Assembly (NCBI RefSeq): GCF_002285795.1
Contig: NZ_CP022961.1
Location: 5,026,001 to 5,090,000 of the forward strand
Direction: 5' to 3'
DNA: 64,000 nt
Source: Plantactinospora sp. KBS50
GTDB taxonomy: Bacteria; Actinomycetota; Actinomycetes; Mycobacteriales; Micromonosporaceae
Shown here: positions 3,613 through 18,353 of the stretch, piece by piece
How positions within the stretch are numbered: position 1 is the first letter of the stretch
How the letters are laid out: every line of letters starts with the position of its first letter
Notes under the pieces: generated by a model
What the model was told of the DNA's origin: nothing
Databases searched by the model: none
What the model saw: only the letters and a program-made list of their open reading frames with translations
Position numbers and translations under genes: made by a program

Positions 3613-5001
3613 ATGCGACTTCGTCCCGTGCTGACCGCCCTGCTGGCCGCGGCCGCGCTGGCCGCCGTCACCGCGGCCCCGCCGCGGGTCACCGGCGCCG
3701 GCGCACCCCGGCCGGCCGACCTGGCCGCGGCGGGCGTCCCCCTGGTGGCCTGCTCCGCCCCGGCCTGGGCCGAGGGGGTCAACTATCCGGCCGGCGGCCG
3801 GGTGAGCTACGCCGGCCACCTGTACGAGGCACTGATCACGCACACCCCGCCGCCCGGAGCCGGCTGGAACCCGGCGGCCACCCCGGCGCTCTGGAAGGAC
3901 CTGGGCGCCTGCGACGGCACCCCGCCGCCCACCGCCTCCCCGACGCCCACCCCGTCACCGACGCCCTCCCCGACGCCGACCGCCTCTCCGACGCCGACCG
4001 CCACGCCGTCGCCGACGGCCACGTCGAGCCCGCCACCCGGCGGGGACACCTGCGCGGTCCGGTCCCGCCCCGGCGGCAAGGTGCTGCAGGGCTACTGGGA
4101 GAACTGGGACGGCGCCGCCAACGGCGTACACCCCGGGCTGGGCTGGATACCGATCACCGACTCCCGGATCCGGCAGCACGGCTACAACGTGGTCACCGCG
4201 GCGTTCCCGGTGATCCGCTCCGACGGCACGGTCCTCTGGGAGAACGGCATGGACGCCGGGGTCCGGGTCCCGACACCGGCCGAGATGTGCCAGGCCAAGG
4301 CGGCCGGGCTGACCATCCTGCTGTCGATCGGCGGCGCGACCGCGGGCATCGACCTCGGCTCGGCCGCGGTCGCCGACCGGTTCGTGGCCACCGTCGTGCC
4401 GATCCTCAAGCGCTACAACTTCGACGGCATCGACATCGACATCGAGACGGGCCTCACCGGCAGCGGCAACATCAACCAGCTGTCCACCTCACAGGCCAAC
4501 CTGGTGCGGATCATCGACGGGGTGCTCGCCCAGATGCCCTCCACGTTCGGCCTGACGATGGCGCCCGAGACCGCGTACGTCACCGGCGGCAGCGTCACCT
4601 ACGGCTCCATCTGGGGCGCGTACCTGCCGATCATCAAGCGGTACGTCGACAACGGCCGGCTCTGGTGGCTCAACATGCAGTACTACAACGGCAGCATGTA
4701 CGGCTGCTCCGGCGACTCCTACCCGGCCGGCACGGTGCAGGGCTTCACCGTGCAGACCAACTGCCTGAACAGCGGTCTCACGGTGCAGGGCATCACCATC
4801 CGGGTCCCGTACGACCGGCAGGTCCCCGGCCTGCCCGCGCAGTCCGGAGCCGGCGGCGGCTACCTGGCACCGGCGTCGGTGGCCCAGGCGTGGAACACCT
4901 ACCAGGGCGGCCTGAAGGGGCTGATGACCTGGTCGATCAACTGGGACGGGTCGAAGGGCTGGACCTTCGGCGACAACGTCCGCGCGCTACAGGGCCGCTG
5001 A
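3613..5001 (+). CDS. Secreted chitinase: N-terminal CBM5/12 module, Pro/Thr linker, GH18 catalytic domain
   Basis: 462 residues from ATG 3613, chosen because AGGAGG (3601-3606) is at ideal distance; an in-frame ATG at 3598 overlaps that site. A signal peptide (about 1-35) precedes a CBM5/12 module (about 45-105: APAWAEGVNYPAGGRVSYAG, WNPAATPALWKDLGAC). A repetitive PTPSPTPTASP linker covers about 106-145. The GH18 barrel follows, with LLSIGGATAG and the canonical catalytic motif DGIDIDIE; downstream are MQYYNG and a final MTWSINWD strand. The domain order is opposite to the chitinase at 1481, yet both share a promoter motif, which suggests complementary secreted enzymes for chitin breakdown. 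Confidence 0.93.
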   Translation: MRLRPVLTALLAAAALAAVTAAPPRVTGAGAPRPADLAAAGVPLVACSAPAWAEGVNYPAGGRVSYAGHLYEALITHTPPPGAGWNPAATPALWKDLGACDGTPPPTASPTPTPSPTPSPTPTASPTPTATPSPTATSSPPPGGDTCAVRSRPGGKVLQGYWENWDGAANGVHPGLGWIPITDSRIRQHGYNVVTAAFPVIRSDGTVLWENGMDAGVRVPTPAEMCQAKAAGLTILLSIGGATAGIDLGSAAVADRFVATVVPILKRYNFDGIDIDIETGLTGSGNINQLSTSQANLVRIIDGVLAQMPSTFGLTMAPETAYVTGGSVTYGSIWGAYLPIIKRYVDNGRLWWLNMQYYNGSMYGCSGDSYPAGTVQGFTVQTNCLNSGLTVQGITIRVPYDRQVPGLPAQSGAGGGYLAPASVAQAWNTYQGGLKGLMTWSINWDGSKGWTFGDNVRALQGR

Positions 5002-5013
5002 CCCACCCGTACC

Positions 5014-5049
5014 CGCCGGTCCGGCCCGCCACCCGCGGCCGGACCGGCG
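5014..5049 (+). terminator. Hairpin terminator after the second chitinase gene
   Basis: 13-bp perfect inverted repeat (5014-5026 with 5037-5049), 10-base loop, starting 13 bases past the stop. Confidence 0.75.
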
Positions 5050-5167
5050 CGTACGGCCCCCGGCTTTGCGCCGCGCTGTCGGCTTCACGGCTGTGCGCGC
5101 GGCCGTTCGGGTGCACCTTTGCCTGGCAGGAACTTCCACCCGAGCGGGCACTGAAGCTGGTGACACC

Positions 5168-6028
5168 ATGACCGGACAGGAAACTCACGGGAAGGCGCGG
5201 GTGCGGCGCTGTCCGCCCCCGCCCAGAAACTTCGACCCCTTCGACGCCGCCGAGGACGACCTGCGGCGGCACGGCCTGCCGCTGCGGCCCGACCCGCGGA
5301 CCCGGCCGGGGGTGGCCGCACTGTGGGAACGGCAGGCGCGCCGCTACCGCGGCTTCGAGCACCTCGCGGCCGAGTTCGACCCGGGTACGGCGGACCGGGA
5401 CGTCCGCGCGGCAAGCGCCCTCGGCCCGGCGCCCATCGAGTCCTGCGGCTACGAGCTGACCAGCGTGGCGGCGCCGTTCACCGTCCTGTTCGTCACCTGG
5501 ACGGTGCCGAACCTGCGCTTCGTGACCAGCCCGTTCGGCGTCAACCACTTCCACACCTTCGTCGGCCTGGGCTTCCTCGACGTCCACGTGGAGATGACCG
5601 TCGACTCGGCGCAGACCGTCACCAGCCAACTCTGGGCACAGGGGGTCGGGCAGATCAACCTGCCGGTCGGCCCGGGCGAGGTGATCAGCGGATCGCTCTG
5701 CCTGGACACCAACGCGGCCGGTACGGCGCACTACTTCCTGGCCAACGAGACCAGGGGGCAGACGATGAACTTCTCGGTCGACACCGGGTTCCCGCCCGCC
5801 GTCACGGTGAACGCGGGCGTCACCCGGGGGGACCTCAACCTGCCGGTGCATCCGCTGGCCCGGTTCGGCACCGTCTACTTCGACGAGATCAGCGCCTACA
5901 CCACCAGCGGCACCAGGTCGCTCACCTCGGGCCAGGCCATCACCATGGTCGAGTCGAACGGCAGCACCCTGGCCACCCCGGTCCGACTCACCGACTACGC
6001 CTTCAAGACGGTGTTCGCGGGGGCGTGA
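5168..6028 (+). CDS. Protein with a G1-peptidase (eqolisin)-like beta-sandwich, probably non-catalytic
   Basis: 286 residues from ATG 5168. There is no signal peptide; the first ~85 residues are charged and Arg/Pro rich. Residues about 95-285 read like the eqolisin beta-sandwich: VTWTVPNLR, then NLPVGPGEVISGSL, YFLANETRGQ, FGTVYFDEISAYTTSG, and MVESNGSTLATPVRLTD near the end. The loop that in G1 peptidases holds the catalytic Glu (usually in an AEWIVE-like segment) reads here VNAGVTRGDLNLP with no Glu, so peptidase activity is doubtful. The gene has its own short upstream region after the chitinase terminator. Function unknown; the fold assignment is by eye. Confidence 0.6.
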   Translation: MTGQETHGKARVRRCPPPPRNFDPFDAAEDDLRRHGLPLRPDPRTRPGVAALWERQARRYRGFEHLAAEFDPGTADRDVRAASALGPAPIESCGYELTSVAAPFTVLFVTWTVPNLRFVTSPFGVNHFHTFVGLGFLDVHVEMTVDSAQTVTSQLWAQGVGQINLPVGPGEVISGSLCLDTNAAGTAHYFLANETRGQTMNFSVDTGFPPAVTVNAGVTRGDLNLPVHPLARFGTVYFDEISAYTTSGTRSLTSGQAITMVESNGSTLATPVRLTDYAFKTVFAGA

Positions 6029-6108
6029 CCCGCTCCGCGTTGCCGGTCGCCTCTACCGTATCTGCCAGCCCGCCGGGACGTGCCCGGCCGGGCAGCCTAG
6101 GAGTGGTC

Positions 6109-6696
6109 ATGCCCGGTCGTCCCCTCATCCGATCCACGGTCCTCGTCCTGGCCGCCGCGCTCGCCGCGGCCGGCTGCACCTCCACCCCCAGCGACTCCAC
6201 CGAGGTCACCGCGACCACGCGGGTGACCCAGGACCCGACCGCGACCGCCTCGGCCGCCGCCGGCACGGACCCGACCGGCGAGGCCACCCCGGCCGGCAAG
6301 ACCGACGGCGGCACGACCGGCAACGGCTCGACCGGCGGCGGTTCCACCGGCAACAGCGGGGGCCAGTCCGCCTCCGGGCCGACCATCACGTACTTCCGGG
6401 TCGCCAAGTCGCCGTCCTGCCCGGCCGGCACCAACCTCAACCCGATCGCCGGCACGCCGGTCACGCTGGAGTGGAAGACCGGGAACGTCGACTCGGTCGC
6501 GCTCTCCATCGACGGTCCCGGGGTGTACGCCGAGGACTACCCGCCCAGCGGCAGCGACACCATCAACTTCCCCTGCTCGGGCGGGGACGGCGAGGTCCAG
6601 AAGCACACCTACACGCTCACCGTGCGCAACTCCTCCGGTCAGCGCACCAGAACCCTGACGGTGACCGCCAAGACGCGCACGATCGCGGCGGTGTGA
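6109..6696 (+). CDS. Hypothetical secreted lipoprotein with a Gly/Thr-rich linker
   Basis: 195 residues from ATG 6109, preceded by TAGGAG. The N-terminus is a lipoprotein signal with lipobox AAAGC (Cys near 22). Residues about 23-85 are low-complexity Thr/Gly/Ser (TGNGSTGGGSTGNSGG), acting as a spacer from the membrane. The C-terminal ~105 residues look like one immunoglobulin-like beta-domain: PVTLEWKTGNVDSVALSIDG, then YTLTVRNSSGQ and RTLTVTAKT. I do not recognise a more specific family. Such proteins usually display a small binding domain on the cell surface. Confidence 0.8.
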   Translation: MPGRPLIRSTVLVLAAALAAAGCTSTPSDSTEVTATTRVTQDPTATASAAAGTDPTGEATPAGKTDGGTTGNGSTGGGSTGNSGGQSASGPTITYFRVAKSPSCPAGTNLNPIAGTPVTLEWKTGNVDSVALSIDGPGVYAEDYPPSGSDTINFPCSGGDGEVQKHTYTLTVRNSSGQRTRTLTVTAKTRTIAAV

Positions 6697-6754
6697 CCCG
6701 ACACGGGTCGGCCATCCCGCGGTGGCTCTTTCGATAGACAAAAGTCACTCTGGT

Positions 6755-6787
6755 CGGGCTGGATGGGCCGCGAGCCCATCCAGCCCG
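6755..6787 (+). other. Hairpin immediately upstream of the phosphatase ribosome site
   Basis: 14-bp perfect inverted repeat (6755-6768 with 6774-6787), loop CGCGA. It ends 3 bases before the GGAG (6791-6794) of the next gene. It could be the terminator of the lipoprotein gene, or a 5'-leader structure that affects translation of the phosphatase. Confidence 0.65.
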
Positions 6788-6803
6788 AATGGAGTACGAC
6801 CCC

Positions 6804-7664
6804 ATGTCGATCATCCGCAGGGTCACCGCCCTGACCCTCGCGACGGCGGCGCTGGCCGCCGTCGCGACGCCCGCCGCCGCGGCGCCGGCCACGACGACGC
6901 TCACCGTTGCGCCGCCCGCCACCGCGGCGATGACCGCCGCGACCTGGGAACGGTCGCTCGGCCTGGCCAACGCCACGAACTTCCGGGACGTCGGCGGGTA
7001 CGCCACGACCGACGGGCACACGGTACGCACCGGCGTGGTCTTCCGGTCGAACAAGCTCAGCAACCTCACCGCCGACGAGTGGCAGGTGGTGCTGGCACAC
7101 GGCATCAACCGCGACGTGGACCTGCGCAACGTGGCCGAACGCCGCGACGAGCCGGACCGGGTACCGGCCGGCATCACGTACCAGGTCGCGGACGTGGCCT
7201 CGGTGAGCCACGGGATCCGTTTCCACGACGACGCGCTGATGACCCTGGCGCTGGCGATCGCGGCCGGGCTGCTGTCCGGCTCGTCCGACCTGGGCCAGTC
7301 GATCGGCTACCCGTTCATGGTCAACTTCATCGGCGCGGACTACGCCTTCCACGACACCCTGCTCGCGATCGCCCGGAACACCTCCGGCGGGGTCGTGTAC
7401 CACTGCACGGCCGGCAAGGACCGCACCGGCTGGGCAACCGCGGTGCTGCTGACGCTGCTGGGCGTGCCGATGTCCACCGTCGAGGCCGACTTCCTGGCCA
7501 GCAACACGTACCTGGGTCGGCCGGACGCGGTGGAGGTGTCCTGGCTGCGGGCCGCGTTCGCCGAGATGTACCACATCTACGGCAGCTTCGACGCGTACCT
7601 GCACCAGGGTCTGATGCTGACCGACGCGGACATCGCGGCCATCCGGGCGCGACTGCTGGTCTGA
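6804..7664 (+). CDS. Secreted tyrosine-protein phosphatase (PtpB/SHP-like family)
   Basis: 286 residues from ATG 6804 (GGAG at proper distance; an in-frame ATG at 6789 is less well placed). Residues 1-30 form a signal peptide (TLATAALAAVATPAAAA). The catalytic P-loop HCTAGKDRTG is at 200-209, with nucleophile Cys201 and Arg207; NFRDVGGY near the start of the mature domain is typical of the Y_phosphatase3/PtpB family. It dephosphorylates phosphotyrosine, and in some relatives phosphoinositides, outside the membrane. It is convergent with the large ATPase gene ending at 7699. Confidence 0.9.
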   Translation: MSIIRRVTALTLATAALAAVATPAAAAPATTTLTVAPPATAAMTAATWERSLGLANATNFRDVGGYATTDGHTVRTGVVFRSNKLSNLTADEWQVVLAHGINRDVDLRNVAERRDEPDRVPAGITYQVADVASVSHGIRFHDDALMTLALAIAAGLLSGSSDLGQSIGYPFMVNFIGADYAFHDTLLAIARNTSGGVVYHCTAGKDRTGWATAVLLTLLGVPMSTVEADFLASNTYLGRPDAVEVSWLRAAFAEMYHIYGSFDAYLHQGLMLTDADIAAIRARLLV

Positions 7665-7698
7665 GCGCCCGGTCGGGACGCCGGTTGGGGACGCCGGG

Positions 7699-10600
7699 TC
7701 AGGGCGCCGGCGCGACCGCGCGGGTCACGACCTCCTCGGGGGTCATGGCGCTGCGCGGGTGGTGGCTCAGGCACATCGGTGCCTGCATCTTCACGAACCG
7801 CGCGCCCTCGACCGCGGCGTAGAACTGGCCGGAGCGCATCTTGCCGACGTCCGGGACGTCGGTGCCCTTCGCCCTGGCCACGTCGCGCGCCGCCTCGATC
7901 TGCACCGGCACGGTCAGCAGCCCGTAGAACTGGGTGGCCGCGTTGCCCGGGATCTGGTTGTGCAACCCCTTCGGCGCCTGGGTGGCGAAGACCAGCCCGA
8001 GCCCGTACTTGCGCGCCTGCGAGGTCAGCGCAAGGGTGCTCTGCGTACAGGCGGTCATGGTGGCGGACGGGGCCAGGGTCTGCGCCTCGTCCATCACGAA
8101 CAGCCCGCCCAGGGGCCGGTCGTTGGCCGGGTGCCGCTTGATCCAGGTGAACAGGGCCAGCTGCAACTGGTTGACGAAGTTCTGCCGCTGGTGCTCCTCG
8201 GTCAGCCCGACGAAGCTGATCACGGAGATCCGGGCACGCCGGCCCGGCCGCGGGGTGAGCAGCTCACCCGGGTCGACCGGGGTGCCCGCGCCGCCGAACA
8301 ACGGGTCGTCGATGAGGGCGGCCTTGAGCAGTTGCGCCATGCCCGCCGCCAGCTTCGGCGCGCTGTCGAGCTGGCTCGCCCCGTCCGGCAGGTCGTTCAG
8401 CAGCTCGGTGAACTCCCGCAGGTCGTTCGCGCCGGTGCGGGCGTACCGGGTCAGCGCCTCGCGCAGCACGGCCCGGCCCAGCCGCGCCTTGTCCGTGCCG
8501 CCGTTCACCCGGGCGTGCGGGGCCAGCGTGGCGACGGCGGCGTTCACCGCCGCGGCGAACCCGTCCGGGTCGTCGAGGACGTCGGCGAACCGGGGCAGCG
8601 GCTGGAAGGTCAGCGGCCGGCCCGCCTGCCGGCCCGGCGTCCAGATCACCACGTCGGTGCCGGACAGGTACGCCGCGGCCCGGCCGGCATCCTCCGGCGC
8701 CCACCCGTCCGGTGGGGCCGGCCACGCCTCGCCGAGCCGGGCCAGGTCGTTGTTGGGGTCCAGCACGATCGCCGAGACGCCCCGCAGCGCGCACTCCTCG
8801 ACCAGCCGGCGGATCAGGACCGTCTTCCCGGATCCGGAGCCGGCGAAGATGACCGTGTGCCGGCGCAGCGACTCCAGGTCGACGCGGACCGGTTCCGGCC
8901 CGCCGGCGACCGTGCCGAGCACCATGGACCGGGGGTCGACCCCCGGGGCCGGGGCGCCGCCGGGCGCCGGCAGCACCGGCGCCGGCACGGGCTCAGCCGC
9001 GGAGGCCGGCACGGACGCCGGCACGGACCCCGGGGCCGGTTCCGGCGCCGGCGGGACCTGCGCCCGGCCGATCACCCGGGTCGGTTCGGGTACGCCGGGC
9101 GGGTCCAGGTCGGACTCCACCGCCACCGTCACCGTCACCGCCGGCACCGGCGCCGGCGCGACGGCCTCAACCTCGGCCTCGGCCGGTCCCGGCGCGACGG
9201 CCTCGGGCTCGGCCGGCGCGGATCCGCCGCCCAGCGCGTCCCGCAGGCAACCGATCTCCGACGCGGGTCGCCGGTCGGCGAACCAGGGCCGCAGCGTCTC
9301 CCGGCCGTACTGCCGCAGGAGTTGCTCCAGCGCCGCCATCCGGGCGATGTCCTCGGCGGGGAAGGGCAGGGTCCGGCCGCCGGCCCGCTCGAACGCCTCC
9401 AGCACCTCGCGGGTGCGGGCACCGCTCGACCAGTGCGGGGTGCGCAACAGGAACAGCTGCCGCTTCACGACCCCCTCGCTGAGCCCGGCGGTGGTGATGG
9501 CGTTGCGGATCCGGTTGAGCGCGGCGATGTGGTGCGACGCGCAGATCGCCCGGAACGACCAGTGCTCCTCGTCCTCGCTCTCCTCCCCCAGGCTGCGCCG
9601 CAGCCGGGCGTGCAGCGCCGGCTTCCCCCCGGCGGGAACCGGGTCGAGGCTGAACGCCTCAAGCTCCTCGCCCTGCTGCCCGATCCAGGCGGTCAGCCCG
9701 GCCTCCAGCAGGATCGGCACCCGGGTGTCCTCGGACTGCGCCCGGGTGGCGGAGTCGGTGTCGGCCGAGGCGATCAGCTCGGCGTACCGGGAATCGATCT
9801 TGCTGAACTCGTCCGTCCGGTCCGCGACCACCGCCACCGCCGCGGCGGCCGGTGTGGTCGTGCCGTGCGCCGGCCCGGCGCCGTCCACCAGGTGCCGCAG
9901 TTCCCGCACCTCGCCGGCCGCCAGGCAGGCCCGGACGTGCGTGTCGATCCGGCGCAGCAGTTCGCGCGGGGTGAAGCCGACGACCTCGTCGAACGCGACG
10001 GGGTGCACCGGCCAGGTCGGGTACTCCGGCCGGAAGCCGAGTTCGTCGAAGATCGGCGCGAACCGCTTCTCGACCAGTTCCCGGCCGACCTCGACGGCGG
10101 GAATGTCCTTGAGCCGTACGGCCTCCCGGAACCGGTCCTGCACCGTGTCGGTGGCCTGGGTCTTGATGTTCTGCCAGGTCTGCGGCAGGCAGGAGACCAC
10201 CGACAGCGACCGCCGGGTGGTCTCCCGCAGCGCCATCAGGCCGCTGGCGATCTGCTCCAGCAACAGCGAGGTCTGCCAGTCGGTCTCCCCGCGGACCTCC
10301 TGGTTGGTCGCCTTCACCGACTGGGCGACCATCAGGTCGATCTGGTCCACCGCGATCACGGTCGGGCCGACCATGGCCAGCAGCCGGGACGCGTCCCGGA
10401 CGACCTCCTGCGGCGCCCGGCGGCTGCGCCGCAGGCCCCATCCGGCCCGGGTACCCGGCTCCTCCTCGTCGCTGGAGCAGAGGAAGTCGTACCCGACGTC
10501 CTGGGTGGCGGCGGCGTCGGCGGCGTACAGCACCAGCGCCCGCGCGGTGTCCTGGCACTCGGTGCCGACCTGCCGGTCGGCCTTGCGGATCAGGTCGACG

Positions 10601-11073
10601 AAGGCGTCCAGCGCGGAGCGGCTGAGTTCGGTCTCCCCGGTGACGGCCCGGCGGACCGCCCGGGGCGCGCCGACCTGGTCGGCCAGCCGGCGCAGGAAGG
10701 TGCGCAGTTGGGTCGAGCCTTGCGGCATCGGCCGGGCGAAGTCGGTGAGCATCGAAATCGCGGTGCTGTGCCAGAACGCCCGCGCCTCCAGCAGCGCGAC
10801 CAGGAAGAAGAATCCGCCCCGGCGGTGCACCTCGTGGCGCACAGTGCCGAGCAGGTGGGTCTTGCCGGTGCCGCGCTGGCCCAGGATCGCCACCCCCACC
10901 GGGCTGACGTCGGCGGCGTCGTCCGCCTCGGCGTAGCTGTCCAGCACCGTGCGTACGACGTCGCGGTGCAGGCCGTCGACGTGGAACGGGGCGGGTTTCC
11001 ACACGTCGTCCGGTGTCGGTGCCCAGTTGAACCTCAGCGCGGCCAGGGCCCGCCGCTGTTCGTCGCTGATCAT
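7699..11073 (-). CDS. Double NTPase: N-terminal AAA-type ATPase fused to C-terminal HerA-like translocase domain
   Basis: 1124 residues from ATG 11073, which overlaps the stop of the upstream gene by ATGA. Domain 1: Walker A GQRGTGKT at 65-72 and Walker B TVIAVDQIDLMV near 235-246, an AAA/STAND-type module followed by a helical region (about 330-610). An Ala/Pro/Val-rich disordered linker covers about 615-715. Domain 2: Walker A GSGSGKT at 745-751 after HTVIFA, AIVLDPNNDLARLG, Walker B GLFVMDEAQTL near 990, then LTSQARKYGLGLVFATQAP, which are hallmarks of HerA/FtsK-like hexameric DNA translocases. HerA ATPases usually work with nucleases or in antiviral systems; no nuclease is seen here. Possible roles are defence or DNA repair, and the exact role is unknown. 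Confidence 0.8.
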   Translation of the reverse strand: MISDEQRRALAALRFNWAPTPDDVWKPAPFHVDGLHRDVVRTVLDSYAEADDAADVSPVGVAILGQRGTGKTHLLGTVRHEVHRRGGFFFLVALLEARAFWHSTAISMLTDFARPMPQGSTQLRTFLRRLADQVGAPRAVRRAVTGETELSRSALDAFVDLIRKADRQVGTECQDTARALVLYAADAAATQDVGYDFLCSSDEEEPGTRAGWGLRRSRRAPQEVVRDASRLLAMVGPTVIAVDQIDLMVAQSVKATNQEVRGETDWQTSLLLEQIASGLMALRETTRRSLSVVSCLPQTWQNIKTQATDTVQDRFREAVRLKDIPAVEVGRELVEKRFAPIFDELGFRPEYPTWPVHPVAFDEVVGFTPRELLRRIDTHVRACLAAGEVRELRHLVDGAGPAHGTTTPAAAAVAVVADRTDEFSKIDSRYAELIASADTDSATRAQSEDTRVPILLEAGLTAWIGQQGEELEAFSLDPVPAGGKPALHARLRRSLGEESEDEEHWSFRAICASHHIAALNRIRNAITTAGLSEGVVKRQLFLLRTPHWSSGARTREVLEAFERAGGRTLPFPAEDIARMAALEQLLRQYGRETLRPWFADRRPASEIGCLRDALGGGSAPAEPEAVAPGPAEAEVEAVAPAPVPAVTVTVAVESDLDPPGVPEPTRVIGRAQVPPAPEPAPGSVPASVPASAAEPVPAPVLPAPGGAPAPGVDPRSMVLGTVAGGPEPVRVDLESLRRHTVIFAGSGSGKTVLIRRLVEECALRGVSAIVLDPNNDLARLGEAWPAPPDGWAPEDAGRAAAYLSGTDVVIWTPGRQAGRPLTFQPLPRFADVLDDPDGFAAAVNAAVATLAPHARVNGGTDKARLGRAVLREALTRYARTGANDLREFTELLNDLPDGASQLDSAPKLAAGMAQLLKAALIDDPLFGGAGTPVDPGELLTPRPGRRARISVISFVGLTEEHQRQNFVNQLQLALFTWIKRHPANDRPLGGLFVMDEAQTLAPSATMTACTQSTLALTSQARKYGLGLVFATQAPKGLHNQIPGNAATQFYGLLTVPVQIEAARDVARAKGTDVPDVGKMRSGQFYAAVEGARFVKMQAPMCLSHHPRSAMTPEEVVTRAVAPAP

Positions 11074-11786
11074 GCCGAGATGGCGATGAGGTGCTTGTCC
11101 TGGTTGCCGATGCGCACCGCGGCGGCCCGTTCCTCCGGCCGGAGCACCTTCTGGTTGGACTCCGGCACCAGGTGCACGTCCCGGTCCCGGTTGAGCCGGA
11201 CCAGCGCGGCGTCGACCTCGGCGCGGGACAGCCGGTCCAGCGCGGAGCGCAGGTCGGCCAGCATGATGTAGTCGCCGGGCGCGGTCGCCAGGCCGCGGTA
11301 CGCCTGCCGCACCAGGGTCGCCGGGTCGACCTGCCCGCCGGCCGGCGGCTCGGCCGGCGGGCTCGGCTGCGAACCCGCGCCGGGCTGCGCGGCGGCGCCC
11401 GGCTGCGCGTCCGGCGCCGGCGCGAGGCCGGCGCCGCGGATCTGCAACCGGAACAGGTCGTCGACGGAGAGTCCGGTGTGGTCGATCAGCCGGCCGACGA
11501 ACTCCAGCAGGACGTAGAGCGTCCCGCCCGGGGTGCCCGCGCCCTTCGGCGGCTCCGCGCGCAGTTCGGCGGCGGCCCGCTCCCAGCCCGCGTCGGTAAG
11601 CGCCAGGGTGATCCGCGGGTCCTTCGTCACCTCGATCAGTTCGCCGGACTCCAGCCGGCGGCGGTGCTCCGCCTTCAACCCGATACCCGCGACATTGGTG
11701 AAGTAGGTCTGCGGCAACGGTGTCGCCTTGATCATCAGCGTGATGAGAATGCACCGGTCAACCAGCGTCAGTTCCTTTTCCGGCAT
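11070..11786 (-). CDS. Winged-helix-like partner protein of the AAA-HerA ATPase (unknown function)
   Basis: 238 residues from ATG 11786 with AGGAG upstream. The first ~70 residues look like a small helical DNA-binding fold (LVDRCILITLMIKATPLPQ, LKAEHRRRLESGELIEVT, LALTDAGWERAAAELR). A Pro/Ala/Gly-rich linker spans about 125-155. A second small helical domain (LRSALDRLSRAEVDAALVRL) ends in DVHLVPESNQKVL and RIGNQDKHLI, which look like a conserved tail. Translational coupling (ATGA) to the ATPase gene implies a two-protein complex. I do not recognise a named family; one winged-helix domain at each end is an inference from the pattern. Confidence 0.7.
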   Translation of the reverse strand: MPEKELTLVDRCILITLMIKATPLPQTYFTNVAGIGLKAEHRRRLESGELIEVTKDPRITLALTDAGWERAAAELRAEPPKGAGTPGGTLYVLLEFVGRLIDHTGLSVDDLFRLQIRGAGLAPAPDAQPGAAAQPGAGSQPSPPAEPPAGGQVDPATLVRQAYRGLATAPGDYIMLADLRSALDRLSRAEVDAALVRLNRDRDVHLVPESNQKVLRPEERAAAVRIGNQDKHLIAISA

Positions 11787-12166
11787 GCGGATGCTCCTTC
11801 GCGGTGCGCGCTTTCACCACGGCACGGTGATGGTCGAAGACTCGGCGGGGGTGGCCGTGATCCCGTTGCCCGGCAACGGGTCGGCCCGCGCCCCGGCCGA
11901 TTCTGCCCACGGCACCCGATGAGCGCAAGGTCGGTTATCCGGGTGCAGAAAACCGACAGTACGGCTGAGCGGATCTTCAGATGTCCTGCCTGGACGGTGT
12001 GCCTGAAACACCTGTTCGGAGCGGTCACAACTGATCACGAATACGGCCGTTGCCAAATGTCGACGGCAAGGGGCAGCATGGCTGATCGGCGAGAGACCGC
12101 CGGCAATTCCGCCGCGCCGATGGCTCTCACCTGCCCTTTTCGCGGAATCGCCACGGAGGTGACGGC
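11787..12166. promoter_or_regulatory. Divergent promoter region between the two NTPase modules
   Basis: 380 bases without a supportable gene. It must hold promoters for both directions. The main structure is a tight palindrome at 11862-11880 (CCCGTTGC / GCAACGGG around CCG), about 75 bases from the minus-strand start. Local GC falls around 11930-12070 relative to the coding flanks. No clear -35/-10 pair could be assigned. Confidence 0.5.
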
Positions 12167-12496
12167 GTGCGGTCCGAGGTGGTGCGCTACCAGATCGACG
12201 ACCGGACGGTGGCGTTGATCGAGATCGAACCGCCCGAGGGCTTCCAGCCGGCCGGTCTCGGCGACGTGGCCGGCTGGGTGCGGGATTCCGCCGCACCCGC
12301 CGTCGCCGCCGCGCGGGAACTGCTGGAGCAGGTGAAGTCCGCCGCTCCGGACGCCGTCGAGGTCAAGTTCGGCGTCAAGGCCACCGGCACCGCGAGCTGG
12401 GTGGTGGCCAGGACGGCCGCGGAGGCGAACTTCGAGGTCACCCTGCACTGGCAGCCGGACCGATCCCCGGGAAACGGCGCCGGACCGCGGCGTTGA
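12167..12496 (+). CDS. Trypsin-co-occurring domain 1 (Trypco1, CU044_2847-type) protein
   Basis: 109 residues from GTG 12167 (GGAGG eight bases upstream). The pattern is that of the small Trypco1 family: a start strand RYQIDDRTVALIEIEPP, a helix AVAAARELLEQVKS, then VEVKFGVKATGTASWVVART and a closing strand ANFEVTLHW. Such proteins occur almost only next to trypsin-like proteases fused to signalling NTPases in predicted actinobacterial conflict systems. The next gene starts 16 bases downstream and is exactly such a protease-STAND protein. It may be a regulatory or substrate partner of the protease; the biochemical role is unproven. Confidence 0.82.
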   Translation: MRSEVVRYQIDDRTVALIEIEPPEGFQPAGLGDVAGWVRDSAAPAVAAARELLEQVKSAAPDAVEVKFGVKATGTASWVVARTAAEANFEVTLHWQPDRSPGNGAGPRR

Positions 12497-12512
12497 GGCC
12501 GCGGGAGGACCG

Positions 12513-15500
12513 ATGACCGCAGCGTGTGAGGACTATCCGTGGTCGGTCTCCCTGCACCGGGGGGCGGGCCAGCGCACCCCGGTCGGCACCGGCATCGTGG
12601 TCGACACGAACCTCGTGCTCACCTGCCACCATGTGGCCTTCGGCGCCGACGGGATGCTGCACGGCGACCTGGAGGTCGCCTTCCCGCACGGGCGCAGGGT
12701 CCACTTCCTCGACCGGCGCCGGGTCCGCCAGTGCCTGCACGACGGGCGGGCCAGCGCGCAGGTCGACCTGGTGCTGCTCGAACTGGTCGAGCCGGTCCCG
12801 CCCACCGTCACGCCCGCGCGGCTGCGCTGCCTGGAGCCCAGAACGCTGCTCGGGCGGCCGTTCTGGGCGTACGGCTATCCGGAGATGATCCACGGCGGCC
12901 TCTCGGCCACCGGCACCGTCGCCGATACCGGCGGCTGGGGCCAGGTGCAGATCGACAGCGGTTCCGGCGGTCCGCTGGGCCGGGGGTTCAGCGGAGGCCC
13001 GCTCTGGTCCCCGGAGTACCAGGCGGTGGTCGGTGTGGTGGTGACCATCGACGGCCGGGGCAAGGGCCAGGCCGTGACGCTGCACTACGCCGACGAACAG
13101 GTGCCCGAGATGAAGCTGGGCACGCTGTCGGCCTGGCGGGCCGAGGACGCCGACGACGCCGCCCTCTCCGCCTGGGGTTGGACGCTGCGTGCCGACGGCG
13201 AGGCCGGCCGGCACTGGCTGCCCCGGGCCCGCGGGGTGGCGGTGGACACCGAGGGCGGCGCCCGGTTCCGCGGTCGCACCGCCGCGCTGCGGCGCATCGT
13301 CGACTGGATCGACGGCCCGACACCGGTCGGCCGGCCGCTGATCGTCACCGGCTCGCCCGGGGTGGGCAAGTCCGCCGTCCTCGGCCGGATCGTCACCACC
13401 GCCGACCGGCAGATCCGCGCGACGCTGCCCGCCGAGGACGTCGCGGTCCGGGCCACGGTCGCTTCGGTGTCCTGCGCCGTGCACGCCAAGGGCAAGACCG
13501 CCATCGAGGTCGCCGCCGAGATCGCCCGCGCGGTCGCCGTCGACCTGCCCGGCACGCCCGCCGACCTGGTACCGGCGGTCCGCGACCGGCTGGACCGCCG
13601 GCCCGCCCGGTTCGCGCTGGTCGTCGACGCGCTGGACGAGGCGGCCGACCCCGGCCAGGCCCGCGCGGTCATCGACGACATCCTGCTGCCGCTGGCCCGC
13701 GACTGCGGCCGGTACGGGGTCCGGGTGGTGGTCGGCACCCGCCGCGGCGACGACCGGGGCGACCTGATCGCCTGCTTCGGTGAGGACGCCGAGCTGATCG
13801 ACCTGGACACGCCGGACTACTTCGCGGAGTCCGACCTGGTGCACTACGCCCAGGCGACGCTGCAACTGCTCGGCGCGCGGCGCCCGGCCAACCCGTACGG
13901 CGACCCGGCCGCCGCCGCGCCGCTGGCCCGGCGCATCGCCACGCTCGCGCAGGGAAACTTCCTGGTCGCCGGCCTGGTCGCGCGCTCGCACGCGGTACGC
14001 GACACCGAGCCCGTCGATCCGGCGACGGTGTCGTTCACCGCGACCGTGGCGCACGCGTTGGACACCTACCTCGCCGGGCTGCCGGCGGCGGGCTCGACGT
14101 CGGCCCGGCTGGCGCTGACCGCCCTGGCCTACGCCGAGACGCCGGGACTGCCGCTGCCGCTGTGGCAGGCCGCGGTGACGGCGCTCGGAGGCACGGTCAG
14201 CGAGCCGGAACTCGGGGTGTTCGCCCGTACCTCGGCGGCGAACTTCCTGGTCGAGACCGGCGGCGGCGAGCGGCCCGCGTACCGGCTGTTCCACCAGGCG
14301 CTCAACGACGCGTTGCTGGCCGACCGGGACGCCCGGGCGTCGCGCCGCGACGACCAGCGCCGGCTGGTCACCGCCTGGGCCGGCGGCGCCGCCGCCCGGG
14401 GCTGGGCGTCCGCGCCCGGCTACCTGCTGCGGTCGCTGCCCCAGCACGCCGCCCGGGCCGGGCTGCTCGAACGGCTGCTCGCCGACGAGGACTACCTGCT
14501 GCACGCGGAGCTGGACCGGCTGCTCACGGTGGTCGACACCGCGCAGCAGCCGCTGGCCGGGCGGGCGCGGTCCCGGGCGCGGCTGCTGCAACGCACCCCG
14601 CTGGCGGTGGCCGCGGCGCCGGCCGAGCGGGCCGCGCTGTTGTCGGTGGTCGACCGGTTGGACGGCCTGGACAGCGGACTGGCCGGCGCGGCGCCGTACC
14701 GGGCGCGGTGGGCGCACACCCCGCCGCGGCAGGAACGCAGCGTCCTGGACGGGCACTCGCAGGCCGTGTACGACGTCGCCCCGGTCGAGGTCGACAACCG
14801 GCGGCTGCTCGCCTCCGTCGGCGACGACGGCACCGTGCGGCTCTGGGACCCGCTGACCAGCCAGGTGGAGCGGGTGCTGAACTGCCACGACGACACGGTC
14901 CGCAGCGTCTGCGCGGTGCGCACCGGCGCCGGCGAGACGCTGGTGGCCACCGCCAGCCACGACGGGACGGTGGGCCTGTGGGAGCCCCGGACCGGGAACC
15001 GCCGGCACGAGTTGCGGGGACACGACGACTGGGTGCGCAACCTCTGCACCCTCCCGCTGCCCGACGGCGACCTGCTGGTCTCGGCCGGGGACGACCGGAC
15101 GGTACGGGTGTGGGATCCGGTGGCCGGGACGCAGCGGTACGCGCTGACCGGGCACAGCGGCTGGGTCACGGCCGTGACCTACCTGCCGGCCGGCGGCCGG
15201 CACCTGCTGGCCTCCACCGGCTACGACGGCACGATCCGGATCTGGGAACCCACCGCCGGCGCCGGAGCGGAGCTGACGCTCACCGGCCACACCGGCTGGG
15301 TCACCACCCTGTACGCGGTCCGCGCGCCCGGCGGCACGCTGTTGGCCTCGGCCGGGTACGACGGCACGGTCCGGTTGTGGGATCCGCTCGCCGGTCAGGC
15401 GGTGGCCGTCCTGGAGACCGGCGGCCCGATCACCGACCTGTGCACCGTGCAGGTCGAGGGTGGCCGGCTGCTCGCCTCGACCGGCGAGGACGGGCTGATC

Positions 15501-16583
15501 CGGCTCTGGGAGGTGCCGACCTGGGCCGCCCGGCCGAGCCTGCGCGGCCACGCGAGCTGGATCCGGGCGATCTGCGAGCTGCGGACCGCCACCAACCGGT
15601 TGCTGGCCACCGCCGGGGACGACGGGACCGTCCGGCTCTGGGATCCGGCCGGCGGCCAGCCGGACGCGGTCGCCGACCGGCGCCGGGTCGGGCCCGTGAC
15701 CGCGCTCTGCCCGGTGCCCGGCCAGCGGCCCGGGGTGGTGGCCTCGGGCGGCGCCGACGGCCGGGTCCGGTTCTGGGACGTCGGCACCGGTGAGCGGCTG
15801 CTGGAGTTCGCGACGTCCGCGGGGGCGCTCAACGCCGTCTGCGCGGTCGCCGACGACGAGGAGCCGCTGGTGCTGACGGCGCACGACGACAACGCGGTCG
15901 GTTCCTGGAACGCCCTGGACGGCTCGTCGATGCGGGAGATGACCGAACACTACGGGCCGGTGGCCGCGGTCTGCCCGATCGTGATCAACAATGAGACGCT
16001 TGTCGCCTCGGCCGGCGACGACCAGGCCATCCGGCTGTGGCACCCGCACAGCGGGTCCGTCCGCACGGTGCTGCTCGGGCACGTCACCCGGGCCTGGGTG
16101 ACCGCCCTGGCCACGGTCGACCGGCCGGGTTCCCCGGCACTCGCCTCGGCGGCGCTGGCCTCGGCCGACAAGAGCGGCACCGTGATGCTCTGGGCCGGCG
16201 GTGACTCTCCGGTCTGGACCCAGCAGGGACACGGGGACGCGGTGAACGCGCTCTGCGGTCTCACCGTTGCCGGCCAACCGGCGGTGGTGTCGGCGAGCGC
16301 CGACCACACGATCCGGATATGGGACGCCGAGCGGGGCCGGCCGATCCGGTTGTTCACCGGGCACACCGGCCCGGTCACCGGGCTGAGCCTGGTCCGGATC
16401 GGCGGCCGTGAGCTGCTCGCCTCGACCAGCCGGGACCGGACGGTGCGGATCTGGGACCCGCAGACCGGCCGGCCGGTGCTCACGATCCCGGTCTACCACC
16501 CGGCGCTCGCCTGCTGCACGGTCGGCGACACCCTGCTGGTGGGTCTGGATCAGGGCCTGCTGGCACTGCAGATCGCCGGCTGA
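12513..16583 (+). CDS. Trypsin-like protease / STAND (NACHT-type) NTPase / 14-blade WD40 fusion protein
   Basis: 1356 residues, ATG 12513 with GGGAGG upstream. Residues about 8-200 are a trypsin-fold protease: catalytic triad His40 (LTCHHV), Asp85 (VDLVLLEL) and Ser160 (GFSGGPLW). There is no signal peptide, so it acts inside the cell. A STAND NTPase follows: Walker A GSPGVGKS 280-287, Walker B FALVVDALDEA 367-377, and a winged-helix/helical region to about 740. The C-terminus (about 745-1356) has 13 clear WD40 repeats (each ending like DDGTVRLWDP) plus a final degenerate one, fitting two 7-blade propellers. By analogy with other STAND proteins, the propellers would sense an invader or stress ligand, NTP would drive assembly and the protease would be the effector. 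Only the domain layout is seen directly. Confidence 0.88.
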   Translation: MTAACEDYPWSVSLHRGAGQRTPVGTGIVVDTNLVLTCHHVAFGADGMLHGDLEVAFPHGRRVHFLDRRRVRQCLHDGRASAQVDLVLLELVEPVPPTVTPARLRCLEPRTLLGRPFWAYGYPEMIHGGLSATGTVADTGGWGQVQIDSGSGGPLGRGFSGGPLWSPEYQAVVGVVVTIDGRGKGQAVTLHYADEQVPEMKLGTLSAWRAEDADDAALSAWGWTLRADGEAGRHWLPRARGVAVDTEGGARFRGRTAALRRIVDWIDGPTPVGRPLIVTGSPGVGKSAVLGRIVTTADRQIRATLPAEDVAVRATVASVSCAVHAKGKTAIEVAAEIARAVAVDLPGTPADLVPAVRDRLDRRPARFALVVDALDEAADPGQARAVIDDILLPLARDCGRYGVRVVVGTRRGDDRGDLIACFGEDAELIDLDTPDYFAESDLVHYAQATLQLLGARRPANPYGDPAAAAPLARRIATLAQGNFLVAGLVARSHAVRDTEPVDPATVSFTATVAHALDTYLAGLPAAGSTSARLALTALAYAETPGLPLPLWQAAVTALGGTVSEPELGVFARTSAANFLVETGGGERPAYRLFHQALNDALLADRDARASRRDDQRRLVTAWAGGAAARGWASAPGYLLRSLPQHAARAGLLERLLADEDYLLHAELDRLLTVVDTAQQPLAGRARSRARLLQRTPLAVAAAPAERAALLSVVDRLDGLDSGLAGAAPYRARWAHTPPRQERSVLDGHSQAVYDVAPVEVDNRRLLASVGDDGTVRLWDPLTSQVERVLNCHDDTVRSVCAVRTGAGETLVATASHDGTVGLWEPRTGNRRHELRGHDDWVRNLCTLPLPDGDLLVSAGDDRTVRVWDPVAGTQRYALTGHSGWVTAVTYLPAGGRHLLASTGYDGTIRIWEPTAGAGAELTLTGHTGWVTTLYAVRAPGGTLLASAGYDGTVRLWDPLAGQAVAVLETGGPITDLCTVQVEGGRLLASTGEDGLIRLWEVPTWAARPSLRGHASWIRAICELRTATNRLLATAGDDGTVRLWDPAGGQPDAVADRRRVGPVTALCPVPGQRPGVVASGGADGRVRFWDVGTGERLLEFATSAGALNAVCAVADDEEPLVLTAHDDNAVGSWNALDGSSMREMTEHYGPVAAVCPIVINNETLVASAGDDQAIRLWHPHSGSVRTVLLGHVTRAWVTALATVDRPGSPALASAALASADKSGTVMLWAGGDSPVWTQQGHGDAVNALCGLTVAGQPAVVSASADHTIRIWDAERGRPIRLFTGHTGPVTGLSLVRIGGRELLASTSRDRTVRIWDPQTGRPVLTIPVYHPALACCTVGDTLLVGLDQGLLALQIAG

Positions 16584-16598
16584 GCCCGCCCGGCGGGC
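16584..16598 (+). terminator. Short GC hairpin directly after the trypsin-STAND gene
   Basis: GCCCGC-CCG-GCGGGC, immediately after the stop codon. Only 6 bp, so a weak terminator candidate. Confidence 0.35.
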
Positions 16599-16717
16599 CG
16601 GCGGCGTCCACCCGCCGATTCGGGGACGGATTACGGATCCGGCAATTCTCCACAATGACGAAACCCGGTATCCGATTACGCACCGATTGTGGTCGGGTAT
16701 AGCAAGACTGCCCTAAC

Positions 16718-16736
16718 AAAGGTAAGGCTAACTTCA
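16718..16736 (+). promoter_or_regulatory. Probable iron box (DmdR/IdeR-type) upstream of the DUF1540 gene
   Basis: AAAGGTAAGGCTAACTTCA matches 14 of 19 positions of TTAGGTTAGGCTAACCTAA, including the core AGGCTAAC. It lies in the 357-base gene-free stretch 16584-16940, about 205 bases before the DUF1540 start. The rest of that stretch (16740-16930) shows nothing else I can assign. Confidence 0.55.
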
Positions 16737-16940
16737 TTCACCGAATGGGCGATGGTAACGCCCCACAGCCGACCACGGGCGATGTTGCGCTGCTAGAGTG
16801 GGGTCACTGGAAATGCTTAGCGGCAGGTCATCCGGTAGCGGTTTTGTCCCCCGACCGGGTGGCTAATACAGACTGACATGTGAGTACGCCGGGCCACCGT
16901 GTTCCACTTTCCCACCGGCCCGAACAGTGTGGAGGACACC

Positions 16941-17237
16941 ATGAAAACCCTGTTGCAGTCACCTCCGGTACGTGAATGCGCCGCCACCGCGTGCAGTTTC
17001 AACAACAACGGCTGCCACGCCCCGGCGATCACCGTGGCCTCGACCGGCGACGCCGCGTCCTGCGCGACGTTCGTGGAGTCGTCGGTGAGCGGCGGGATCG
17101 CCGAGGTGACCGGCGCGGTGGGCGCGTGCGCGCGCTCCGAGTGCGTCTACAACACCAACCTCGCCTGCACCGCCGAGTCCATCACCGTGGGCCCGGCCGC
17201 CACCGCCAGCGACTGCCTCACGTACCAGCCCCGCTGA
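16941..17237 (+). CDS. DUF1540-domain protein with two Cys-rich repeats
   Basis: 98 residues from ATG 16941 (GGAGG six bases upstream). Two copies of the DUF1540 pattern: CAATACSFNNNGCHAPAITV ending in ASCATF, and CARSECVYNTNLACTAESITV ending in ASDCLTY. Each has four conserved Cys, suggesting a small metal-binding knuckle. No signal peptide or membrane segment. Iron-box-like sequences before this gene and before the next one suggest that both are expressed under low iron; a role in metal handling is inference. Confidence 0.85.
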   Translation: MKTLLQSPPVRECAATACSFNNNGCHAPAITVASTGDAASCATFVESSVSGGIAEVTGAVGACARSECVYNTNLACTAESITVGPAATASDCLTYQPR

Positions 17238-17265
17238 CCGGCGCGGAAAACCGCCCCGCCTTGGC

Positions 17266-17284
17266 GAAGGTTAGCCTTACCTAC
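17266..17284 (+). promoter_or_regulatory. Probable iron box upstream of the DUF2470 gene
   Basis: GAAGGTTAGCCTTACCTAC matches 14 of 19 positions of the iron-box consensus. It lies 29 bases after the DUF1540 stop and 56 bases before the DUF2470 start. Confidence 0.65.
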
Positions 17285-17339
17285 TAGTGTCATGTCCCTG
17301 GGCCGGACTCACCATCACTTCATGGCCGAGGGGACTGAC

Positions 17340-18250
17340 ATGGCGCTGCACCGAGCCGGGCGGCCAGCGGAGCTGGCGGCGCCCGTACCCGTCGACGCCG
17401 ACGCGCAGGCGTCCCCGGCGGGTGCGGGCGCAGCGCTGGCCGACTCGACCGCGGTGCTGGCCCGCTCGGCGCTGTCGGCCACCCCGTCCGTGCTGCTGAG
17501 CCTGGATGACGCCACCGTCGACCTGATCGACTCGCACGCCGTGCTGTCCGACGGCACGCCTGTCCTCGCCGTCGACCCGATGACCCGGCTCGGCGGCCTG
17601 TTGGTGGCCGCACGCGGTCGCCCCGGCGCGGTACGGCTGGACGTCACGCGACTCGCCCCGCTGGCCGTGCGCTCCCGGGTGCGCGCGAGGGTCTGGCTGC
17701 TCGGCACCGTCCGCCGGTTCGACCCGGCCCGCCTCGACTCCTGCGACGACGACACCGTCGAGGCCCTGCTCGGCCTGCCCCCGTCGCGCTCTGGGCGGTC
17801 GAGCCGGTCGAGGTCGGCGTGCTCCGCGACACCGGCGCGGCCGCCGTGCCCGCCGACGACTACCGCGACGCGCGGCCCGATCCGCTCGCCACGGTCGAAA
17901 CCGCCTATCTGTCGCACCTCACCCAGCGACACGCCGCGGTCCTCGACCGGCTGGCGACGCTGCTCGACCCGGCGCTGACCGCCCGATCGACCCGGATCGT
18001 GCCGGTCGCCCTCGACGCCGACGGCCTGGTGCTGCGCGCCGAGACCCCGGACGGGCACGCCGACGCCCGGCTGCCGTTCGGCCGCCGGGCGACCGGTCGC
18101 GCCGGCCTCGGCGACGGACTGCGGACGCTGCTGGCCGAGGCGGACCGCCGCGAACCCGCCCGGTCGCCCGGTGCCCGCACCGCCGCGACGCGGCCCGCGG
18201 CTGACTCCTGCGAACCGCGCGCGGCCGGCTGCGACGTACCCCCGCTCTGA
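17340..18250 (+). pseudogene. DUF2470-type (haem-utilisation-like) protein gene interrupted by a frameshift
   Basis: ATG 17340 has GAGGGG upstream. Codons read normally to about 17777 (DDATVDLIDSHAVLSD, LDSCDDDTVEALLGLP), then the frame gives nonsense. The other frame continues the protein (VALWAVEPVEVGVLRD, then TVETAYLSHLTQRHAAVLDR) to TGA 18248-18250. Adding one C to the C5 run at 17778-17782 joins both halves as LLGLPPVALWAVEPV. The intact product would be about 303 residues with a C-terminal DUF2470 domain, as in haem-degradation partner proteins. The iron box upstream fits that role. It is either a real inactivating deletion or a homopolymer read error. Confidence 0.75.
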
Positions 18251-18353
18251 CCCGCCCTCGGTCCGGCCGGCGGCCGGACCCGCCGGCGCACCGCCGGACG
18301 CCGGACGGACGGACCGCAGTCGCCGGACGGACCGCACAGCCGCCAGGCGAACC

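Follow-up and report, generated by a model that had tools for sequence, protein, structure and literature searches.

HerA-type translocases are familiar from HerA-NurA, a repair pair of translocase and NurA nuclease, and both the HerA and the ORC families work in repair and replication. The predicted HerA/FtsK capture systems (PMC10853773), as their main text presents them, bring together an Orc/CDC6 AAA+ ATPase, a HerA/FtsK translocase, a winged helix-turn-helix (wHTH) protein and a nuclease of restriction-endonuclease (REase) type. The BREX-related capture (BRC) systems are described in the available text of PMC12839542 with a HerA/FtsK translocase, an ORC/Cdc6-type ATPase, a STAND NTPase and a DNA-binding module. 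Kaur et al. 2020 (PMC7159879) reported trypsin-co-occurring domain 1 (Trypco1) as a companion of trypsins in predicted NTP-dependent conflict systems, and the available text of that paper and of PMC8195603 counts FtsK-type ATPase domains as less common effectors of such trypsin-bearing systems. Here we consider a locus related to these systems. It lies in a stretch of 64,000 nucleotides of Plantactinospora sp. KBS50 (contig NZ_CP022961.1, positions 5,026,001 to 5,090,000 of the forward strand), termed the window, and comprises a large gene for a fused AAA+/HerA protein and a small gene for a winged-helix protein (Table 1). On balance we favour the view that these two genes form the DNA-handling core of a predicted system against invaders that, in the clade of the window, has lost a nuclease and had its output rewired to a trypsin-STAND-WD40 protein and Trypco1. 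We infer that a function in defence is likely.

Both the HerA/FtsK translocase domain and the wHTH protein of the capture class are present in the window. The likeness to the Orc/CDC6 capture systems, as far as the main text of PMC10853773 describes them, extends to an initiator-type AAA+ domain and, in most relatives of the locus, to a nuclease. The differences are also clear from that text. AAA+ and HerA parts are a single polypeptide here, the nuclease of the relatives belongs to DUF559, a name with no occurrence in the main text of PMC10853773 (supplements excluded), and the clade of the window carries trypsin-STAND-WD40 and Trypco1 genes, where the same text contains neither trypsin nor protease and has peptidase once. 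We read the locus as a fused actinobacterial variant, with a swapped effector, of the Orc/CDC6-type HerA/FtsK capture systems, the closest published kind. The claim that it works alike, as a HerA-centred capture core, is stronger than a claim to membership of the Orc/CDC6 capture class, because the Orc/CDC6 assignment is tied with TnsC, the inactive REase that lies between AAA+ core and wHTH in that class is at most a possible identity of the middle domain, and an active REase was not found in the window's clade (29 loci, one tblastn query). An earlier note on this DNA could match the layout to no named system. That holds in so far as no family in Pfam, PADLOC or NCBIfam covers the whole 1124-residue protein; it overlooked how near the locus stands to the predicted class portrayed in the main text of PMC10853773.

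The BRC systems, in the available text of PMC12839542, have comparable kinds of component, and BrxC is a fold match of the AAA part (Z 13.0). They differ in that two ATPases are fused here, and neither trypsin nor DUF559 occurs in that text. BREX or BRC proper was rejected as an identification, no PglZ or other BREX component being detected with PADLOC among the 11 genes of 3628-19184 or with NCBIfam in three proteins. The HerA part matches the mad8 model of MADS (E 5.9e-18). Membership of MADS was likewise rejected, the only other mad match among the 11 genes being a weak one of MerR-type helix-turn-helix (HTH) to mad1. The gene responsible encodes a MerR/GyrI-like regulator at 18354-19184 and the match, through its HTH, is probably incidental. 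With HerA-NurA the locus shares a HerA-type translocase and, in most relatives, a nuclease partner, but that partner is DUF559 and not NurA, and there is an extra fused AAA+ domain as well as a winged-helix protein. Pfam gave no NurA match among the 11 genes and this candidate was also set aside.

As in the Trypco1-trypsin modules of PMC7159879 and the iSTAND2/TERNS3 systems of PMC8195603, a Trypco1 gene here adjoins a trypsin-like peptidase. Those systems, in the text available, tie trypsin to VMAP, or to iSTAND with vWA/MoxR, and some or all of their FtsK-type effectors are inactive; here a single protein unites trypsin, a STAND-type NTPase and WD40 repeats, and its gene adjoins a HerA/AAA+ core with a winged-helix partner. 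The FtsK-type effectors in that text are a partial precedent for combining trypsin with a translocase. HerA itself appears in one reference title in each of the two available texts and nowhere else in them. Pfam detected no vWA, MoxR or VMAP among the 11 genes, the 1356-residue protein being covered by its best 25 of 51 families and a rescan of its first 740 residues in two pieces; VMAP may have no Pfam model. In open PubMed Central (PMC) texts, supplements excluded, we found no description of a HerA/AAA+ fusion with winged-helix partner and nuclease-to-protease swap. DUF559 was not found there together with DUF87, nor with antiphage; HerA and Trypco1 coincide only in Kaur 2020, and HerA with DUF559 and defense gave nothing on this layout by title or start of abstract. 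The conserved core is one for which no system name was found in the literature, and it is a new fused variant of a predicted class.

Relatives were collected by a scan with the AAA half, using one genome per species; the best 80 of 411 were kept with flanks of up to 10 kb, and partners were counted by a six-frame hidden Markov model (HMM) search. The DUF559 nuclease is present in 56 of these 80 loci and the trypsin-type STAND gene in 18, the two never occurring together. The absence of a nuclease, which had been taken for the defining oddity of the pair, is true of the window's own lineage only. A further P-loop NTPase gene occurs in eight loci, four with and four without the nuclease, and in 52 loci the nuclease is accompanied by neither of the two STAND-type genes looked for. 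A second set consists of gene calls on 40 loci and the window, with 42 large genes; its genomes overlap with the 80 and the sets are not summed. Here 18 large genes have the nuclease, 15 the trypsin gene, one a STAND-WD40 gene without trypsin, one the other NTPase and seven no partner, although one of the seven (L075) has a nuclease by tblastn. The six-frame search also recovered nucleases that the first gene calls had missed in L126, L178 and L123, the last a fragment at a contig end. Genes of the window itself served to seed the gene finder, whose agreement with them is therefore not independent support; their conservation is.

In the nuclease type the commonest gene order is nuclease, small gene, large gene. 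Upstream proteins match DUF559 (PF04480) with E 1.7e-11 and 3.6e-11. Among 53 called nucleases, E-[IVL]-D-G..H and D..RD..L are found in all 53 and D[LV].W in 52. The same order is seen on a Methylobacterium plasmid (nuclease E 9.6e-36, small protein 3e-32, AAA half 2e-115) and on a Tsukamurella plasmid record, and because of these two the operon of three genes spans more than one phylum and looks mobile. The core is on two plasmid records; a third record, of 11.85 Mb, resembles a chromosome. On the Tsukamurella tyrosinosolvens plasmid record (L182, 4541-12012) rplN and rpsQ flank a segment made up of the block, a PIN/VapB pair and a DEAD-box helicase gene, which suggests that this position in a ribosomal cluster is an insertion site.

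Among the large proteins compared in trees, the trypsin type falls in one lineage. In a tree of 46 selected large proteins, rooted with the Methylobacterium protein, the ten trypsin-type rows form one branch (100/100) and nuclease-bearing rows are scattered over the remainder; deep forks are unresolved and L181 and L100 have long branches. A separate quick tree of 93 rows gives the same branch, with 19 trypsin-type rows and one truncated contig. Among 200 genomes of the same family, 29 of the 30 AAA halves of at least 56% identity have a trypsin-STAND gene within 3 kb. The thirtieth lies on a 6-kb contig; the genome it comes from is fragmented and has its trypsin-STAND gene on a different short contig. 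A nuclease was undetected in the window's clade by tblastn with one nuclease query (29 loci) and by HMM (18 of 18 named trypsin-type loci). The Methylobacterium outgroup also bears the nuclease. The history that asks for the fewest changes is that a ready-made trypsin-STAND-WD40/Trypco1 module took the place of the nuclease once. One effector swap in the clade of the window is well supported.

Table 1. Features of the locus, in positions of the window
Feature	Position	Strand	Basis
Fused AAA+/HerA gene, 1124 aa	7699..11073	-	ATG at 11073; fused in 80/80 closest relatives
AAA+ ATPase with lid, about residues 1-400	9874..11073	-	AlphaFold model, fold matches, motifs
Middle alpha/beta domain, residues 448-589	9307..9732	-	Secondary structure of model only
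Pro/Ala-rich linker, about residues 616-712	8938..9228	-	Composition, low model confidence, length variation
HerA-type translocase domain, about residues 713-1124	7702..8937	-	PF01935, PADLOC mad8, conserved motifs
Protein of 238 aa, two winged-helix-like parts	11070..11786	-	Model and fold match; in 80/80 closest relatives
Conserved element CGATTCTGC-(N16)-GCGCAAG	11898..11929	+	In gap between divergent genes
Trypco1 (trypsin-co-occurring domain 1), 109 aa	12167..12496	+	PF19493 E 2e-17; divergent from core
Trypsin-like peptidase, STAND/NACHT-type P-loop NTPase and WD40 repeats, 1356 aa	12513..16583	+	Pfam, motifs

The fusion of an AAA ATPase to a HerA-like translocase, proposed in the earlier note, is borne out. 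Pfam places AAA_22 (37.1 bits, cut-off 27) and DUF87 (PF01935; 43.8 bits, cut-off 23.2, E 4.2e-11) in the large protein, whose start is the table's ATG and not the upstream GTG of the mechanical open reading frame list. A read error or artificial fusion is rejected, since in all 80 relatives a single open frame takes in both AAA and HerA parts; in L145 and L179 the remainder of the HerA part runs on in another frame. Apparent splits were resolved as a frame change within the gene (L089, L145) or as a single frame with a start called late (L088). The P-loop motifs of both domains are conserved in alignments. AAA motifs of the window protein are Walker A GQRGTGKTH at residue 65, Walker B AVDQID at 241-246 and DRFR at 313, and simple patterns for Walker A, DQ[IVL]D and DRFR are matched in 75, 78 and 74 of the 80 relatives. 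The HerA part has GSGSGKT at 745, MDEAQ at 994, R1021 and Q1032; here Walker A is matched in 77 of 82, MDEA in 81 of 82 and the R/Q motif in 81 of 82. Some misses are due to late-called starts or frame changes. L094 has a degenerate-looking second version of the large gene (6618-10856) that lacks about 110 residues of the HerA part and has the conserved Q changed. A copy in L091 (9843-14186) groups with it and adjoins a normal copy.

The N-terminal 625 residues were modelled with AlphaFold, with a mean predicted local distance difference test (pLDDT) score of 87.7. Foldseek lists BrxC first and ORC/Cdc6, TnsC and RdrA chains among the best rows, with unrelated rows interspersed; the E-values are weak, one match lying at 0.001 or below. 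VIA comparisons give Cdc6 with Z 15.2 (root-mean-square deviation (rmsd) 3.6, 247 residues aligned), Aeropyrum ORC2 with Z 15.1 (3.8, 259), TnsC with Z 14.7 (4.7, 255) and BrxC at rmsd 5.8 over 304. Because ORC and TnsC are tied, the safe statement from the model is that the AAA part has an initiator-type AAA+ fold. The Pfam ORC-CDC6-like match (E 0.0073) is below cut-off and a PDB sequence search with a profile of the N-terminal half reached E 0.075 at best.

The middle domain is modelled with strands at 489-496, 501-509, 538-544 and 567-570 and helices at 448-466, 515-529 and 552-563. This order of helices and strands is compatible with an REase core. Conserved residues include H488, R490, W505, F507 and R508, and there is no ExK motif, so that a domain of REase fold would be inactive. 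The Foldseek and VIA rows listed for the N-terminal model contain no REase fold, which weighs neither way as the domain was not searched alone. The linker that follows is disordered, as had been supposed: residues 617-712 contain 25 Pro and 22 Ala in 96, model confidence is below 50 at 617-625, and relatives differ in its length. For the HerA part the best PADLOC match is mad8, over residues 727-1041, and NCBIfam gives matches below cut-off only, for example HerA, TraD and VirB4. PHROGs match the HerA part only (terminase large subunit, a Zot-like family, a head-morphogenesis family and two of unknown function), and the large protein has no match in phage records at E 1e-8.

The small gene overlaps the large one as ATGA and was found with the fusion in every one of the 80 loci by the six-frame search, which agrees with the coupled winged-helix partner proposed in the earlier note. 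The model (mean pLDDT 87.8) has two winged-helix-like parts with a disordered stretch between them. Residues 1-78 match winged helices of MepR/MarR type (Z 11.4, 75 residues) and TubR type (Z 11.3, 77), and residues 155-238 of the model are a probable second winged helix. Pfam finds nothing for this protein at E 1.

The small gene had been regarded as the only one coupled to the fusion. This proved wrong, since a trypsin-STAND-WD40 gene, mostly with Trypco1, is conserved beside it across the clade. In the 1356-residue protein the triad H40, D85 and S160 is intact, GSPGVGKS lies at 280 and VVDALDEA at 370. In a Pfam rescan of the first 740 residues in two pieces, the peptidase part matches PF13365 (Trypsin_2; 43.1 bits, cut-off 27.6, E 9.2e-11) and PF00089 (Trypsin; 37.4, cut-off 20.6), and the NTPase part AAA_16 (34.6, cut-off 32.6), with nSTAND1 (24.4) and NACHT (23.7) slightly below cut-off.

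Trypco1 and the protease seem functionally tied. Triads were scored by alignment, strict trypsin patterns having missed most relatives. Of 34 clade loci, a count that leaves out duplicates of the same genome, L114 and two contigs of genome G004, 26 have Trypco1 and the His/Asp/Ser triad and seven have neither. The sole exception is L188, with Trypco1 and a trypsin reading frame that changes once mid-gene. The tie is drawn because all seven loci without Trypco1 also lack the triad; six belong to a single branch, where five have substitutions in the triad and one has lost the trypsin domain, and the seventh is a Paractinoplanes locus. We read Trypco1 as acting on the active protease or being acted on by it. 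Adjacency to the core was counted for all 45 trypsin-STAND places against 59 AAA places (the first 52 of at least about 150 and seven from genomes with a trypsin-STAND place). Thirteen places free of the core were fetched. A trypsin-STAND gene was called in ten and Trypco1 was nearby in six; five have both Trypco1 and triad, three neither (L202, L203, L205), L198 has an intact triad with Trypco1 not found, and L206 has Trypco1 with the His position unaligned. The trend is the same, though not clean.

The 380-bp gap between the divergent genes (11787-12166) holds a conserved element that is a candidate shared promoter or operator. The pattern is absent from 100 shuffles of the window. Its exact form occurs once each in 33 of 197 loci, and all 34 occurrences, that of the window included, are within gaps between divergent called genes. 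It is missing in several trypsin-type loci (L107-L110, L112, L113, L115-L119 and L067).

How might such a system work? On incoming DNA the winged-helix protein would form a complex with the AAA+/HerA fusion, the HerA part translocating DNA and the AAA+ part loading the complex or serving as a switch. Ancestrally the core would have handed DNA to the DUF559 (Vsr-like) nuclease encoded by the first gene of the operon. In the window's clade the nuclease would have been lost and the output rewired to the divergently transcribed trypsin-STAND-WD40 protein and Trypco1. Engagement of foreign DNA might then trigger an NLR-like STAND hub, and proteolysis where the triad is intact, as it is in the window; the signal would pass from core to hub, and the infected cell would probably be killed or arrested. 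What the sequences themselves show is the fusion, the gene overlap, the domains of the partners, the mutual exclusion of nuclease and trypsin type in the 80 loci, the single clade and the intact motifs; that a complex forms, that it translocates DNA in defence, which way the signal runs and what the protease cuts are inferred. A tentative extension, possible rather than probable in our estimation, is that this is a capture machine that executes by cleaving protein and not DNA, the winged-helix/AAA+/HerA complex on foreign DNA activating the hub. Trypco1 would be needed only while the protease is active, most simply as an inhibitor (an antitoxin-like safety catch) or as a cleaved substrate.

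Features of context are counted in favour of defence. The DUF559 nuclease of one operon (L096, 11933-13906) has an N-terminal TIR domain (PF13676, E 5.5e-34), and genes of type I CRISPR-Cas are directly downstream of the large gene in three of 41 loci; a Csb1-family match (PF09617, E 4.2e-36) and a Cas3 helicase were measured in L077, with homologous genes in L075 and L076. Together with the nucleases of the relatives, these supply the nuclease and defence neighbours that the earlier note had thought worth seeking. Residues 1-305 of the large protein are matched in 33 of 296 genomes of the class, a patchy distribution also counted for defence.

Some observations weigh against the reading we favour. 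Two of the 80 loci, L138 and, at a contig end, L114, have none of the partners sought, and only 40 of the 53 nucleases carry the motif AE..L. Trypco1 and triad were lost together in just two independent events, a number that cannot make a sign test significant. Of 45 places with related trypsin-STAND-WD40 genes, 16 are free of the core (two belong to the fragmented genome G004, whose core sits on another short contig), so the module does not need the core. A promoter region shared by divergent genes could also reflect joint regulation of proteins that are not physical partners. Finally, the STAND-WD40 gene stays beside the core in the seven loci where the protease is dead or lost, and for this reason proteolysis is not the indispensable output of the system.

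Is the module then a partner or simply a neighbour? The core may be complete alone in the clade, for example as a DNA-translocating roadblock or segregation blocker, with Trypco1 and trypsin-STAND-WD40 forming an independent defence system that merely uses the same intergenic promoter region, much as neighbours in a defence island would. The core-free places, six of the 13 fetched having their own Trypco1, favour this, as does the lack of any fusion seen to join the two modules; however adjacency is preserved in 29 of 30 clade members, the clade of the core matches the presence of the module, and the nuclease goes undetected in exactly the clade that bears it, as judged by one tblastn query in 29 loci and by HMM in 18 of 18 named loci. 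We regard two separate systems as unlikely. The retention of the STAND-WD40 part beside the core, outlasting a dead protease, speaks for the STAND hub as the constant link, with the protease as an output that can be dispensed with. Taken further, the STAND NTPase and not the protease would be the key partner, as switch or scaffold, with nuclease and protease both optional, and the different P-loop NTPase gene upstream in eight of 80 loci, in four with the nuclease and in four in its place, is in keeping with this. Yet the 52 loci with a nuclease and neither STAND-type gene do not fit, and in the window the triad is intact and Trypco1 kept, so that protease activity appears still to be selected. 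A STAND-centred system strikes us as rather doubtful.

A last question is whether the pair serves the chromosome instead, as a maintenance or DNA-repair module of actinomycetes in which HerA and an ORC-like ATPase act at ends or forks in the manner of HerA-NurA. The repair and replication roles of both families are in line with this, and the gene is common, with the AAA half matched in 118 of 200 genomes of the same family (E 1e-20) and the small protein in 122 (E 0.001). But some genomes have several copies and within the class the gene is patchy. It is found on two plasmid records, in one as a block amid ribosomal protein genes, and its effectors are exchangeable and include the TIR-nuclease fusion. 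A maintenance role is in our view improbable. The locus offers a natural comparison of before and after: a nuclease accompanies the core in most examined lineages, and a protease-STAND protein accompanies it in one clade. This allows a test of whether HerA capture systems sense DNA independently of the effector, and makes a testable question of why Trypco1 is lost when catalytic residues disappear from the protease next to it. Common as the core is, no PADLOC model matches the small protein, Trypco1 or the nuclease tried (from L083).

Several minor features of the neighbourhoods may be added. The P-loop NTPase gene upstream of the small gene encodes 570-750 residues (L135, L145, L157, L158, L162, L176, L177 and L179, the last a contig-end fragment). 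Matches to nSTAND3 are weak (E 0.01 in L087 and 0.053 in L176; none at 0.001 in L158) and the L176 protein also has weak TPR matches. Upstream proteins of about 360 residues in L098 (7287-8387) and L100 (11497-12582), with similar N-termini, no Pfam match and no nuclease by tblastn, are possibly a further type of effector. Downstream of the pair in the window, at 3628-7664, are genes that were not among the recurrent neighbours listed when 41 loci were clustered; they include those for a GH18 chitinase, a peptidase A4-family protein and a tyrosine phosphatase.

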